A DNA stretch of 64,000 bases from Deltaproteobacteria bacterium IMCC39524 (GTDB lineage: Bacteria > Desulfobacterota > Desulfuromonadia > Desulfuromonadales > BM103): assembly GCA_029667085.1 (NCBI GenBank), contig JARUHJ010000006.1, forward strand, positions 1 to 64,000. Reading direction: 5' to 3'. The notes beneath the pieces were generated by a model, which had not been told where the DNA came from, made no database searches, and worked only from the letters and a program-made list of their open reading frames with translations. Shown here piece after piece: positions 41,760 to 46,712 of the stretch (its first letter is position 1; each line of letters begins with the position of its first letter). A program made the translations under genes and the position numbers.

Positions 41760-42809
41760 CTAGTGATTAACCAGAAGTTCAGGTTCGCTGTGCTCCCGAC
41801 CCAGGGCGGCCAGAAGACGGCCGGCCAAATCATACTCCAAGGCACCGAGACTCCTGCGCTCAGCCGGCAAAGACCGGACCTGACCACCAGCCGTCATACT
41901 ATGACCACCACCGGTACCAAGACCTTCAACTATCTTTTGCATGAGAATCCCGGCATGGGTCTCCTGATGACTGGTTCGCATGGAAAGAACACCCTCTTCG
42001 TGGTAACAACCTATGCCTAAAACGATTTCTATGCCCTCAACACGCATCAGAAAATCCGCAATTTCCGCGACAATTTCAGGGTGATCAATCAAGTAAAGAT
42101 TAAAAATCAACGCATTTCCATAAATCTTCGCATTCTTTATACCCGTATCAAAATACTTAAAATAAACCCGAGATGATTTTGGATGGGTGATTTCATGCAG
42201 GATGCGATTATTGCAAAGGGGCATCAGTTTCAAGTAGGCGTCACGATCCGACTTGGTCCAGTCTCGACCGAGGTCTTCTGTCTCTGACTTGATCGCATAA
42301 AAGAGGATTGTTGCCAACTTGGTGGCGATCTTGACCTCCTGAGACTGCAGATATTCGAAAAGGATACTGGCCGAAGCCCCGTATTCAGGACGAACATCAA
42401 CCCAACGACTTGCCTGTGTGCACTCTTTTATCTGATGATGATCAATCACCAGATCCACTCGCCGATCAGCCGGATAAGAATTATTGCCGGTACCCGGCTG
42501 GGTATCAACCATGCAAATCGCATTAAACGTATCAAGGTCAAGATCGTCGATCGACTTTGTCTTGATCTCCAGTTCGTTAACCATCACCAGGTTTTCACGG
42601 CGACCAATAACGCCACCGAAAGCGATCGTGGCTTCCTGTCCGGTCTTAACCAGGATCAAATGTTGCAAAGCCACCGCAGCGGCAAGGGCGTCGGGATCAG
42701 GATGATCGTGGGTGACAATCAGGATTGACCCCTTGCCACGAAGTCCTTCTATAATCTCCGTAGAGAACTCTTTAGAGTGAGATTTGTTACAGTCCATTTT
42801 TGAGGTCAT
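41760..42809 (-). CDS. DHH/DHHA1 phosphoesterase (NrnA-like)
   Basis: The 349-residue protein has DHH motif residues VTHDHPDPDALAAA (about 31-44), DTQPGTGN and VIDHHQI, which bind two Mn ions, and a C-terminal DHHA1 domain ending in GTGGGHSMTAGGQV. It most likely degrades nanoRNA or pAp. Cyclic-dinucleotide phosphodiesterase activity is known in this family, but cannot be deduced here. It overlaps the LOG-like gene by four bases. Confidence 0.87.
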   Translation of the reverse strand: MTSKMDCNKSHSKEFSTEIIEGLRGKGSILIVTHDHPDPDALAAAVALQHLILVKTGQEATIAFGGVIGRRENLVMVNELEIKTKSIDDLDLDTFNAICMVDTQPGTGNNSYPADRRVDLVIDHHQIKECTQASRWVDVRPEYGASASILFEYLQSQEVKIATKLATILFYAIKSETEDLGRDWTKSDRDAYLKLMPLCNNRILHEITHPKSSRVYFKYFDTGIKNAKIYGNALIFNLYLIDHPEIVAEIADFLMRVEGIEIVLGIGCYHEEGVLSMRTSHQETHAGILMQKIVEGLGTGGGHSMTAGGQVRSLPAERRSLGALEYDLAGRLLAALGREHSEPELLVNH

Positions 42810-43273
42810 CGTTTCATACTTTCAAAAGCAAGAGTCACCGCTTCCTGCGGAGAACTCACTGCGACAGTTCCAGCAAGTTGTGGCCCGCCGGGCAAGACAA
42901 AGACCGGCTTGCAGAGTTTACACGCAATCGCCGCCTCGGAGAGGGTACCGTACTCCCCCTCAACAGCGATCAAAGCATCAGCAGTATGAGCAATAATCAC
43001 ATTGCGAGCATGGCCCATATTTGTCGGCACCGCAATTGTCACGTAAGGGTTTACATGTGCCTTGTCAGAGCCTGGCAGGACTCCAAGCACTTCGCCTCCG
43101 GCCTCGTTTGCCCCCTTTGCAGCGGCTTCCATAACACCACCGAGACCGCCACAGGCAAGAACCGCGCCCTGCGAGGCAATCTCACGACCGACAGCTTCTG
43201 CCATAACCAGGCCCTCTGGCGAAGGTTGCGAAGCACCGATAACACCGATAATCGTTTTACAACAATTGTTCAT
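42806..43273 (-). CDS. LOG-like protein (TIGR00725 family)
   Basis: The 155-residue Rossmann protein has VIGASQPSPEGL at the start, the family stretch CGGLGGVMEAAAKGANEAGGEVLGVLP and a later GEYGTLSEAAIACKL. These mark the TIGR00725/YvdD-like relatives of LOG (lysine decarboxylase-like) proteins, which lack the full PGGxGTxxE cytokinin-activating motif. No substrate is known. It is the first gene of the minus-strand unit running to rdgB. Confidence 0.8.
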   Translation of the reverse strand: MNNCCKTIIGVIGASQPSPEGLVMAEAVGREIASQGAVLACGGLGGVMEAAAKGANEAGGEVLGVLPGSDKAHVNPYVTIAVPTNMGHARNVIIAHTADALIAVEGEYGTLSEAAIACKLCKPVFVLPGGPQLAGTVAVSSPQEAVTLAFESMKR

Positions 43274-43507: not shown

Positions 43508-43855
43508 GTGAGAAATAAACTGAGGCAACTTGCTGATTATATCCAGGAGGACTTCCCCGAAAAAATTGTGGAAGCCTTTAAATACGACGAAGACCAGACC
43601 CTGGAGAAGCAACTGGCAATCACGAGCGAGGCCATTGCCTTTCACCAGAAGCGTTCCGGTGAGCTGTGGCTCGAAGCCGGGAAGAGGACAACGTTGAGAG
43701 AAAAGCACGCGACCGCACAGGCCACGCTGGCATCCTTTCTGTTTGCGTACCTCACCGGAGAAGCAAAAGAACACAGCGAGAGTACGATTGAAACGCTAAG
43801 AGCGCTGGGCCGACAGAGAGAAGTTGACATAGTAAGAAGCCTGACAAGGCGTTGA
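43508..43855 (+). CDS. Hypothetical protein, small helical
   Basis: I do not recognise the family. From the GTG at 43508 the product is 115 residues, highly charged and probably all-helical (LRQLADYIQEDFPEKIVEAF at the start). There is no membrane segment or signal peptide. It ends 110 bases before the FEN-RNase HI fusion on the same strand and might share its transcript. The gap upstream (43274-43507) shows nothing else. Confidence 0.55.
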   Translation: MRNKLRQLADYIQEDFPEKIVEAFKYDEDQTLEKQLAITSEAIAFHQKRSGELWLEAGKRTTLREKHATAQATLASFLFAYLTGEAKEHSESTIETLRALGRQREVDIVRSLTRR

Positions 43856-43965
43856 TGCGCAGCGGCTTCACCGACATGCACCCTTTAAACGTCCACAAAG
43901 CAGCAACGCAGGAGCAAAACAAAGCTGTTTGATGAACGCCCGGAATATGCGATTCTAAAACCATC

Positions 43966-45456
43966 ATGAAAACAATAAATCAACCCGCTGAGAGCCGCAT
44001 ATCATCAGAGCCGGCAGAGACGCCTCGAGAACTCTACCTGCTCGATGGATCGAGCTACATATATCGGGCCTACTACGGCTACAGAGATCTTGCGACCTCG
44101 ACCGGCATGCCAACCAATGCCGTCTTCGGCTTCACAAAGATGCTCCTGAATCTTCTTCAGGAGAAGCAACCCGATTACCTGGCCATCATCTTTGATCCTC
44201 CCAGAGAAGAGACCTTTCGGAGAGAGCTCTACCCAGAGTACAAAGCAAATCGGGACGCCATGCCTGAAGACCTGGCCGACCAGATTCAGTACATCAGGAA
44301 AATTCTGCAGGCACTCAATATTTCAACGATGAAAATTGCCGGCTTTGAGGCTGACGATGTCATTGCGACGCTGGCGCGACGCTATACCAGCGAAGAACTG
44401 CAGGTGACCGTCGTTACCGGCGACAAAGACTTGATGCAGATTGTCGACCAAAAGATCTCCCTGCTGGACACCATGAAGGATAAACGTTCCGGCCCCCAGG
44501 AGGTTCTTGAGCGCTTCGGGGTCCCCGCAGAAAGTGTACCAGACGTACTGGGGTTGGCCGGAGACACCTCGGACAACATTCCGGGTGTTCCCGGGGTTGG
44601 TGAGAAGACCGCAGCCGAACTGGTTCGACGCTTTGGCTCACTCGAAGATGTCCTCAAATGGAAACATCTGGTGAGTGGCAAAAAACGAAAGGAGAACCTG
44701 CAACTCTATGCCGACCAGGCCAGACTATCGAAAACTCTTGCAACAGTCCGCTACGATGTTGAGCTAGACGTTTCTCTTGACGATCTCGCAAGACAGGAAC
44801 CGAACCTTATGACCTTGATACCCTTGTTGCGCGAGCTGGAGTTCGAGGCTTTGGAAATTGCTTTTACAGCACCGGCTCCGGGTGTGGTTGAGCTCTACAG
44901 TGACGGCTCGGGCACGGACTCAGGCCCCGGTGGATTTGGTGTCGTGCTGCGCTATGCAGGTCACGAAAAAGAGTTGAGTGGTTATGAACCTGAGTCGACA
45001 TCGCAACGGATGGAGCTGATCGCTGCGATCAAGGGTCTGGAGGCCCTGAATAACCGCAGCAGGGTTCATGTGTTCAGCGACTCCCAGTATCTCGTCCAGG
45101 GCATGGTCAAATGGATTCACAACTGGACTCGCAATGGACGACTGGAAGAACCGGGGGCACTCGCCAACCAGGATCTCTGGAAACAGCTTGAAATTCTCTC
45201 CAAACAACATGAAATATCCTGGGAATGGGTTCGTGGGCACTCAGGGCACCCGTTCAATGAACGTTGTGACAAGCTGGCCAAGCGTGCAGTCGAAGTCAAT
45301 ATCAGAAAGACTGAAGAGACCCATTCACCCGAGAAGGCCGTGGCGTTCGAAGAGGCCGTAGCCGAGCCTTTACCGCCGGTCAAACAGGAATCGGTTCCGG
45401 TCAGGGAAGAGTCAGAATTCGACAGTGACGAGGATGGTCAACTACGCTTGTGTTGA
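43966..45456 (+). CDS. Fusion of Pol I-type 5'-3' exonuclease (FEN) and ribonuclease HI
   Basis: The 496-residue protein joins two RNA-primer-removing enzymes. Residues ~22-300 are the 5'-3' exonuclease domain of Pol I: D27, D77, GFEADD (E128, D130, D131), TGDKD (D153, D155), GDTSDN (D200, D203) and the helix-hairpin-helix GVPGVGEKTAAEL. Residues ~306-450 are RNase HI with the full catalytic set: D313 (LYSDGS), E350 (RMEL), D372 (VFSDSQ) and D435 (NERCDKLAK). A ~45-residue acidic tail ends in DEDGQLRLC. No polymerase or 3' exonuclease domain is present. A single protein could hydrolyse the RNA strand in RNA-DNA hybrids and remove the flap; this is inference. Confidence 0.92.
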   Translation: MKTINQPAESRISSEPAETPRELYLLDGSSYIYRAYYGYRDLATSTGMPTNAVFGFTKMLLNLLQEKQPDYLAIIFDPPREETFRRELYPEYKANRDAMPEDLADQIQYIRKILQALNISTMKIAGFEADDVIATLARRYTSEELQVTVVTGDKDLMQIVDQKISLLDTMKDKRSGPQEVLERFGVPAESVPDVLGLAGDTSDNIPGVPGVGEKTAAELVRRFGSLEDVLKWKHLVSGKKRKENLQLYADQARLSKTLATVRYDVELDVSLDDLARQEPNLMTLIPLLRELEFEALEIAFTAPAPGVVELYSDGSGTDSGPGGFGVVLRYAGHEKELSGYEPESTSQRMELIAAIKGLEALNNRSRVHVFSDSQYLVQGMVKWIHNWTRNGRLEEPGALANQDLWKQLEILSKQHEISWEWVRGHSGHPFNERCDKLAKRAVEVNIRKTEETHSPEKAVAFEEAVAEPLPPVKQESVPVREESEFDSDEDGQLRLC

Positions 45457-45484: not shown

Positions 45485-45525
45485 TCAAAAAAATCGGGGA
45501 CACATCAGTGATGTGCCCCCGATTT
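45485..45525 (-). terminator. Intrinsic terminator between convergent genes
   Basis: The arms AAATCGGGG (45491-45499) and CCCCGATTT (45517-45525) enclose the inner palindrome CACATCA-G-TGATGTG. On the minus strand a run of about seven T follows, so it terminates the GAF gene; on the plus strand the T-run is short, so it would stop the fusion gene only partly. Confidence 0.85.
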
Positions 45526-45548: not shown

Positions 45549-46712
45549 TCAGTCCTGCATGTAGCCAAGAGTCGCCGTCCAGAAAGACAGGTCATTGTTG
45601 GTTTTTTCGTAGATTTTCGCATTCATGATGGCGATACCAGAGATCTCAGCCAAGGCAGAGAGGAAGGTAATCTCCTCCTGGCTGTAGAGTCTCTTCTCGG
45701 CACTGTAAAGGCGGAGAACGCCAACCACACGTTGCTGGGCGATGATCGGCATGGAGAGAATCGAAGCAATCCCTTCGGCAACGGTTTCAACAGGGTATTC
45801 CAGGCGCGGATCATTGGCGGTGTCAGTAATCAGAACGGGCCTTCCGGCCAGGGTCTCGCTGATACTCTGGTCAGTGTGCGGTTGCCCTTTGGCCAGGAAC
45901 GTCTCACTCAGACCAGACGTGGCGATCAGCTCAAGCTCATGGGTTGTTTCATTCCTCAGGCGCAGCGCGCTCGCTTTAACCTGCATGATGCTGATCACCT
46001 TATCAACAATCAGCTGGACAACCTCTTTGGAATCAAGAGTCGAGAGAACCGCACTGGTGATTTCATGCAGCGTGCGGAAATAGCCCAGACTCTTACTCGG
46101 ATCAATCTCCTGGACGGCAGAGACGCTGAGCTCCTGGATTACCGCTTCAACCGTCGTCGGCAGGTCTACACCTATCTCTTCGAACAGGGATGCAAGCTGC
46201 TCATCCTTATCCTGATAAATCCGTGCATTGACAATCGCCATACCGCCCATTTCAGCAAGAGCCGAGACGAACTCGATATCCTCATCACTGTAATCATGAG
46301 GCTCCGCGCTATAGAGGCGCAACACACCAATCACTTTATCGCTGGCAATAACAGGCACCGACAGAACAGAAGCGATCCCTTCTGCGCGCATGGCCTCCGG
46401 GTACTGGATACGAGGGTCGCTACAGGCGTCCTTGACATAAACGACCAGCCCATCCAACACTTCAGGGATACTCTGGTCAGCATTAAGCGCGCCTTTATTC
46501 AAATAGGTTTCACTTAAACCGAACGATGAAACCTGTTTCAGGTTATGGCTCTCCTCATCAATCAGTCGCAAGCCGCCCGCTTTAATCTCCAGAGCAGCAA
46601 CAGTACGTTGCACCAGAGAATCGAGAGTTTCCTGCAAGCTGCTAGCAGAAAGAATCGCCTGGGCCGTTTCGAAAAAGAGTCTGAAATATTCGTTGGTGTT
46701 GGACTGGATCAT
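45549..46712 (-). CDS. Tandem-GAF domain protein without output domain
   Basis: The 387-residue cytoplasmic protein has two GAF domains, about 15-170 and 215-375, which are clear copies of one another (GLSETYLNKG and GLSETFLAKG; VIGVLRLYSAE and VVGVLRLYSAE; FVSALAEMGGMAIVNARIY and FLSALAEISGIAIMNAKIY). No kinase, cyclase or DNA-binding domain follows. It may bind a small ligand or nucleotide and act on a partner. The N-terminus is preceded by a possible GAGGTACTT ribosome site. It is divergent to the ychJ-like gene. Confidence 0.8.
   Translation of the reverse strand: MIQSNTNEYFRLFFETAQAILSASSLQETLDSLVQRTVAALEIKAGGLRLIDEESHNLKQVSSFGLSETYLNKGALNADQSIPEVLDGLVVYVKDACSDPRIQYPEAMRAEGIASVLSVPVIASDKVIGVLRLYSAEPHDYSDEDIEFVSALAEMGGMAIVNARIYQDKDEQLASLFEEIGVDLPTTVEAVIQELSVSAVQEIDPSKSLGYFRTLHEITSAVLSTLDSKEVVQLIVDKVISIMQVKASALRLRNETTHELELIATSGLSETFLAKGQPHTDQSISETLAGRPVLITDTANDPRLEYPVETVAEGIASILSMPIIAQQRVVGVLRLYSAEKRLYSQEEITFLSALAEISGIAIMNAKIYEKTNNDLSFWTATLGYMQD

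Follow-up and report, generated by a model that had tools for sequence, protein, structure and literature searches.

Introduction

In primer removal, RNase H nicks the primer RNA and a FEN-type flap nuclease clears what is left at the 5' end, after which a polymerase fills the gap and ligase closes the strand. In eukaryotes and archaea, FEN1 and RNase H2 are tethered to PCNA by a short tail motif. In Bacillus subtilis, a discrete FEN (FenA) and RNase HIII are reported to act in Okazaki maturation (PMC10191290), and the accessible parts of two papers place them in two pathways (PMC10191290, PMC13220808). According to the accessible part of a recent review, how Pol I is brought to the bacterial fork is an unsettled question (PMC11253446). 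As far as the available portions of the sources go, the bacterial clamp motif is Q-L-x-L-F, which in transposases is mostly C-terminal (PMC4549789), or QL[S/D]LF with a highly conserved Gln (PMC3716654).

Natural fusions of RNase HI have been described. The accessible part of a 2007 survey of prokaryotic RNases H reports fusion to a dsRNA/hybrid-binding domain and, in Streptomyces coelicolor, to an acid phosphatase (PMC1950709); the words exonuclease and Geobacter are absent from the main text of that survey. Solo FENs are counted in a 2026 survey of bacterial polymerases, whose available portion makes no mention of a FEN-RNase HI fusion (PMC12926913). RNase H, ribonuclease H and exonuclease are words absent from the main text of the Pelobacter carbinolicus genome paper (PMC3543383). 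Searches of the open-access literature listed no FEN-RNase HI fusion, judged by title and the start of the abstract; domain databases may well list the architecture. The first-pass annotation of the locus studied here had called such a fusion unusual and known of no characterised example, and this agrees with the open-access literature searched.

One reading frame joins a PolA-like FEN to RNase HI

The window, which is the whole 64,000-nucleotide stretch of DNA that was analysed, contains at 43966-45456 (+) one ORF of 496 amino acids plus stop with an ATG start, as read directly from the DNA. The ATG at 43966 is the sole conventional in-frame start; the starts of other members appear by eye to lie nearer the nuclease domain. 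The gene and its parts are as follows.

43966..45456, + strand: FEN-RNase HI fusion gene (ORF, Pfam; found in 62/277 genomes of the class)
44032..44520, + strand: FEN N-terminal (resolvase-like) domain, residues 23-185 (PF02739 5_3_exonuc_N, E 5e-61)
44521..44805, + strand: FEN C-terminal (SAM-fold) domain, residues 186-280 (PF01367 5_3_exonuc, E 1e-30)
44806..44886, + strand: junction, residues 281-307 (alignment)
44887..45291, + strand: RNase HI domain, residues 308-442 (PF00075 RNase_H, E 5e-38; NF001236 above cut-off)
45322..45417, + strand: predicted disordered linker, residues 453-484, poorly conserved (AlphaFold2 pLDDT <50; alignment)
45418..45453, + strand: conserved C-terminal tag, residues 485-496, acidic and then terminal GQLRLC (alignment of relatives)

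The first-pass annotation had proposed a single protein with a Pol I-type 5'-3' exonuclease, an RNase HI and no polymerase domain. The ORF together with the Pfam and NCBIfam searches bears this out. 5_3_exonuc_N, 5_3_exonuc and RNase_H all match, each far above cut-off, and the Pfam search returned no polymerase or 3'-5' exonuclease family. The NCBIfam RNase HI model NF001236 passes with 166.2 bits against a cut-off of 160. Two NCBIfam Pol I models fail, reaching 312–343 bits against cut-offs of 600–720; their matches cover residues 22-301 and end at 299-301. The discrete-FEN models NF011545, NF011546, NF011547 and NF007017 also match, all below cut-off. The junction of about 27 residues is nearly constant in length across the first 22 aligned members. 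It lies at the point where PolA would enter its next domain, and nearly all complete PolA matches in the search of relatives end at residues 296-308.

Both active sites are conserved

Every catalytic residue that had been named in the first-pass annotation sits at its given position, so the claim of two intact nuclease sites holds. The N-terminal FEN domain carries D27, D77, E128, D130, D131, D153 and D155, and D200, D203 and the sequence NIPGVPG are conserved in the FEN C-terminal domain. Among 53 aligned fusions D27, E128, D130, D131, D153, D155 and D203 are invariant, while D77 is kept in 51 (E in the other 2) and D200 in 52 (A in the remaining one). Thus 7/9 of the named FEN metal-binding positions are invariant. 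In the RNase HI half D313, E350, D372, D435 and H425 are invariant in 53/53.

AlphaFold2 was run with the 53-row alignment and gave a mean pLDDT of 86 and a pTM of 0.79. Both domains are mostly at pLDDT ~90 or above; residues 1-17 and 453-484 fall below 50 and are predicted to be disordered. Foldseek matched the FEN half to PDB entries for a plastid-localized exonuclease, ExoIX and the M. smegmatis flap endonuclease, and the second half to E. coli RNase HI. Homology predicts both nuclease activities and the substrate.

The fusion is a patchy gene family that adds to PolA and RnhA

The spread of the fusion was surveyed, as the first-pass annotation had proposed. Among relatives it is present in 24/58 genomes, own genome counted. 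Twenty-two of these carriers have a single match, one (G006) has two matches, and one (G019) is cut by contig ends; the two G006 matches share a single frame of 515 codons, which contains a small internal repeat. The fusion is found in 35/136 genomes of the order and in 62/277 genomes of the class, which we take to be Desulfuromonadia, and the carriers are spread over 16/25 numbered families of the class. Only 3/395 genomes drawn from the phylum carry it, all among the 17 from this class, leaving 0/378 sampled phylum genomes outside the class. None was found in 398 genomes from the phylum to which a Bowmanella belongs, labelled Pseudomonadota, where three matches were RNase HI alone. These surveys used thresholds of E 1e-45 to 1e-55 on residues 186-445, at which very divergent fusions could escape. 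One of 12 genomes from named records of several phyla has the fusion, Citrifermentans bremense R1 (488-codon frame); phyla beyond the own phylum and Pseudomonadota were sampled by single genomes. The fusion is a recurrent gene family with a patchy distribution, and within the genomes sampled it is restricted to the class.

An assembly artefact that joins two genes is conceivable for any single draft genome. The same fusion in one ORF recurs in many other genomes, several of them single-contig (G024, G033, G040 and G044 among them). Therefore the fusion is not a sequencing join, and the chance of an artefact is practically nil.

The own genome (3.78 Mb, 99.99% complete) has one fusion, one PolA (944-codon frame), one RnhA (176-codon frame) and one RNase HII. 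The separate polA and rnhA genes that the first-pass annotation had suggested looking for are both present. Because PolA, RnhA and RNase HII accompany it, the fusion is an addition and not a replacement in this genome. Since these enzymes are already present and 215/277 genomes of the class have no fusion, it is evidently dispensable for replication.

We considered whether the fusion replaces RnhA elsewhere in the class. A separate RnhA match is missing from 6/62 carriers (G037, G049, G151, G162, G178 and G184) and from 13/215 non-carriers, so RnhA loss is not clearly commoner with the fusion and replacement is unsupported. In the six carriers absence of RnhA means a single match with an E-value like that of the fusion itself. 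Genomes at least 90% complete without RnhA are G037, G049 and G162, which have the fusion, and G068, G070 and G235, which do not. A separate RnhA match is present in 56/62 carriers. In two of these rnhA is frame-broken, lying in two frames (G009:C4:19083-19513 and G031:C15:111078-111442) as a result of either rnhA decay or sequencing error.

Because so many carriers have a separate RnhA match, the RNase HI activity of the fusion could be redundant. The RNase HI domain might then mainly bind hybrids and position the FEN, with one active site mattering in vivo. The four RNase HI carboxylates and the histidine that are invariant in all 53 members would be needless in a pure binding domain, and we consider this explanation very unlikely.

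A probable single origin with two parents

The two halves were placed in separate trees. In the FEN-part tree (91 rows) 33 fusions form one clade (100/100), which falls in an unresolved three-way group with 20 PolA (93/80, below the tool's star). Eight of these PolA are titled Desulfuromonadales, Desulfuromonadaceae or Geobacteraceae, 7 come from the window's order, and 5 are loosely titled Delta- or Proteobacteria. The RNase HI tree (71 rows) left out the frame-broken rnhA of G009 and G031, which are too short. Here too the 33 fusions form one clade (100/99), with a long stem, and it lies outside the class's own RnhA, which make up a 30-row clade (98/97). The nearest sampled neighbours of the fusion RNase HI are two Pseudomonadota RnhA, weakly placed (85/72). 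The simplest reading is one origin, in which a PolA-like FEN was truncated close to where its nuclease part ends and fused with an RNase HI of different ancestry. Between G000 and C. bremense the FEN parts are 69.8% identical in the fusions and 56.5% identical in PolA, which fits either stronger constraint on the fusion or later horizontal movement.

A promoter-like element stays with the gene

Two features flank the reading frame.

43929..43957, + strand: promoter-like element (-35-like 43929-43934, -10-like 43951-43956)
45491..45525, no strand assigned: stable hairpin in the gap that separates the fusion from the convergent GAF gene, resembling a terminator for the - strand (MFE -24.9 kcal/mol, z -3.4)

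The promoter-like element is made up of AAAAA, TTTTG and, after these, a 17-base core whose end resembles an extended -10. The core occurs at ≤4 mismatches in 31/58 upstream regions and in 0/1160 shuffles, a control that overstates its rarity because the core was drawn from the same upstream regions in which it was then counted. The element is not called by a sigma-70 consensus scan, so the promoter may be a weak one or one under regulation. With the ATG at 43966 lying 9 bases past the element, the transcript may have almost no leader.

A core search of 10 genomes at ≤2 mismatches gave 10 sites in 7 genomes, against 1 with the reversed control. Six of the ten are at fusion genes (G001, G031, G032, G161, G186 and G258); of the other four, three are in G186 and one is in G000. 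With 6/10 sites at the fusion genes themselves, no regulon sharing the element is evident. One of the three further sites in G186 is an exact copy of the core, which lies 3.5 kb upstream of the G186 fusion (L250:2102; G186:C1:1435101) with no fusion behind it and is possibly the remnant of an earlier copy.

The genes around the fusion were compared over 20 contexts of ~13 kb. G005 retains most of the window's neighbours; G001, G024 and G031 retain single ones. Directly upstream is a 115-residue ORF (window 43508-43855) without a Pfam match, which among the 20 contexts has relatives beside the fusion in G005 (97%) and G024 (52%) only. The convergent gene at 45549-46712 (-) has two GAF domains and no other Pfam domain, and of the 20 contexts it lies beside the fusion in G005 only. 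At window 41760-43273 (-) a DHH/DHHA1 phosphoesterase-like gene overlaps a SLOG (LDcluster4) nucleotide-binding gene; this pair is kept in G005 and lies upstream of an N-acetylmuramoyl-L-alanine amidase-like gene, rph and rdgB, the three named by eye. The promoter-like element stays with the fusion gene across families while these neighbours are lost.

The sole recurring neighbour of the fusion is not a replication gene but a GNAT-family acetyltransferase gene of ~177 residues. It was found near the fusion in 25/60 distinct genomes whose fusion locus was examined, always on the same strand, and this count is a minimum because many loci include well under 1 kb of downstream DNA. Three examples are listed.

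L245:5337-5867: GNAT gene, same strand as the fusion
L244:7356-7868: GNAT gene, same strand as the fusion
L258:6853-7365: GNAT gene, same strand as the fusion

The count is based on a direct search, and a narrower motif search recovers 7 of the 25. The GNAT gene is downstream of the fusion in 20 genomes, directly upstream in 3 (G095, G096 and G155) and ~3.7 kb upstream in 2 (G160 and G161). In nine of the 20 (L012, L013, L014, L017, L020, L022, L023, L279 and L282) it lies 12–63 bases past the fusion stop, so these pairs are probably co-transcribed. The 64-kb window itself has no GNAT match. Eukaryotic FEN1 is regulated by acetylation, and one may speculate that where GNAT follows closely in relatives the pair is tuned in this way.

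The fusion could also be a horizontally moving spare nuclease that helps plasmids or other elements to replicate or be repaired, keeping both activities but bringing its host little gain. Its patchy distribution, the loss of the window's neighbours beyond close relatives and a promoter-like element that travels with the gene are all compatible with such a history. We nevertheless hold it to be improbable. Among plasmid and phage records none matches 80% of the query at any one place, and 0/80 viral loci contain the fusion, on which grounds a phage or plasmid origin was rejected. The active sites are strongly conserved, the gene is present in single-contig genomes, and the GNAT neighbour in 25/60 loci points to a settled gene unit, or to a unit moving together. 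A role in anti-phage defence was also rejected, as 0 PADLOC families match the fusion at E 0.01.

A conserved C-terminal tag resembles the clamp motif

The first-pass annotation had made no mention of the C-terminus. This end of the protein is complete in 59/62 fusion genomes; a contig end removes the tail in G007, G127 and G200. [DE]GQ is kept in 59/59 complete members and 58/59 end in GQ[LFY]x[LF][CYV]. The 58 include G049, with an extra Arg behind the tag, and the one exception is G089 with GQQRLC. In 53/53 members the G and Q of the tag are invariant. Position 4 of the motif is L in 52 and F in one, and position 5 is C in 46, Y in 5 and V in 2, while the third position is unconstrained (R in 25, L in 18, another residue in 10). 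The codons vary as well, with four Gly codons, two Gln codons and six Leu codons in use among the 53 members, and the linker before the tag diverges. The free third position and the synonymous variation show that selection acts on the tag at the protein level.

The ending was then sought in other proteins. Among 947 ORFs of at least 100 amino acids in the 20 context loci there were 19 matches, each of them the fusion; the twentieth fusion is that of G089. At the same minimum length, the fusion alone has the ending among 162 window ORFs, and it is found in none of 115 ORFs from 37 rnhA loci and in none of 1736 ORFs from 79 mostly polA loci. A scan of the whole genome for QLxL[FC] before TAA or TGA gave 21 matches, against 16 in the reversed control, and two of the 21 end long frames, namely the fusion and PurF. 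PurF, an amidophosphoribosyltransferase-like protein named by eye (G000:C1:603167, L301), ends in QLGLF and fits the clamp consensus by sequence; such an ending by itself proves nothing on clamp binding. DnaE of the own genome has an internal GQESLF that resembles the clamp motif.

Compared with the clamp consensus, the tag has the Q and the hydrophobic residues at positions 2 and 4 in 58/59 members, and C, Y or V at position 5 in place of the published F. Because its last residue is Cys rather than Phe, we call the tag clamp-motif-like and not clamp-binding. Its resemblance to the motif suggests that it may bind the clamp; without the consensus Phe the affinity could be weak, or the partner could be another protein. 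The tag is the strongest clue to where the fusion works.

Discussion

The natural reading of the domain content is a role in the removal of RNA primers or hybrids. We propose, with a probability of roughly 0.5, that the fusion is a lineage-specific chromosomal accessory enzyme that is tethered to the clamp and removes RNA primers and flaps, perhaps also R-loops, at or behind the fork. RNase HI would cut within the RNA of an RNA-DNA hybrid, either an Okazaki primer or an R-loop, and the FEN domain would take off the remaining 5' RNA/DNA flap. The disordered linker and the GQLxLC tag would hold the two nucleases on the beta sliding clamp that stays behind on the lagging strand and let them reach nicks and flaps from there. 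Pol I or another polymerase would then fill in and ligase would seal. As PolA, RnhA and RNase HII are still there, the fusion most probably provides a second pathway that would help when primers or R-loops build up. The discrete FEN and RNase HIII of B. subtilis are a precedent for this reading. Against it stand the missing consensus Phe of the tag, the presence of PolA, RnhA and RNase HII, the many genomes of the class that do without the fusion, RnhA loss that is not clearly commoner among carriers, and a recurring neighbour that is an acetyltransferase gene and not a replication gene.

We wondered whether the main task might instead be the clearance of R-loops and transcription-replication conflicts, or stress repair, with the tag recruiting the protein to an SSB-binding hub, RNA polymerase or a similar partner. 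A dispensable gene with a patchy distribution (62/277) fits an accessory stress function, and the fusion has its own conserved promoter-like element. Furthermore, the accessible part of a recent review has E. coli RNase HI recruited to the fork via SSB and not the clamp (PMC11253446). Conversely, it is not obvious what the FEN half would do in plain R-loop removal. To our knowledge, no other short motif suits the invariant Gln and spaced Leu as well as the clamp consensus does, which argues against another partner, and we regard this alternative as somewhat unlikely.

The preferred reading, clamp-tethered primer and flap removal, has a narrower form. In some Desulfuromonadia the fusion may be a one-polypeptide, clamp-tethered enzyme for Okazaki primer removal, analogous to PCNA-tethered FEN1 and RNase H2; we put this forward tentatively, at somewhat less than even odds. 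If true, both nucleases would be delivered to lagging-strand nicks without the nuclease of Pol I itself. A natural fusion of the two primer-removing activities with a candidate clamp handle is a testable case for coupled, clamp-directed steps in bacteria, and it could serve as a one-enzyme reagent that takes RNA out of hybrids and trims flaps.

The fusion is built of two known families; the partnership and the tag are new. It is under selection and is undescribed in the open-access literature searched. Its FEN has the same two Pfam domains and metal-binding residues as that of Pol I and is 57% identical to the FEN of the host's own PolA; RNase HI replaces the 3'-5' exonuclease and polymerase domains. 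Like the discrete FENs (B. subtilis FenA/YpcP, the M. smegmatis flap endonuclease and E. coli ExoIX/Xni) it is a predicted flap nuclease without a polymerase that occurs besides PolA. It differs from them in scoring below their model cut-offs and in adding an RNase HI domain and a conserved tag. As an RNase HI it passes the family cut-off, has the complete catalytic set and is 51% identical to the host RnhA. It differs from RnhA in forming its own clade, in being fused to a FEN and in ending in a tag that no ORF of at least 100 amino acids in the 37 rnhA loci shares. The RNase HI fusions in the accessible part of the 2007 survey are likewise two-part proteins with RNase HI as one of the modules, but have no FEN partner (PMC1950709). 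FEN1 and RNase H2 are separate proteins with another clamp motif, whereas the fusion carries both nuclease domains on one polypeptide and, by analogy, may use its tag as the clamp tether.
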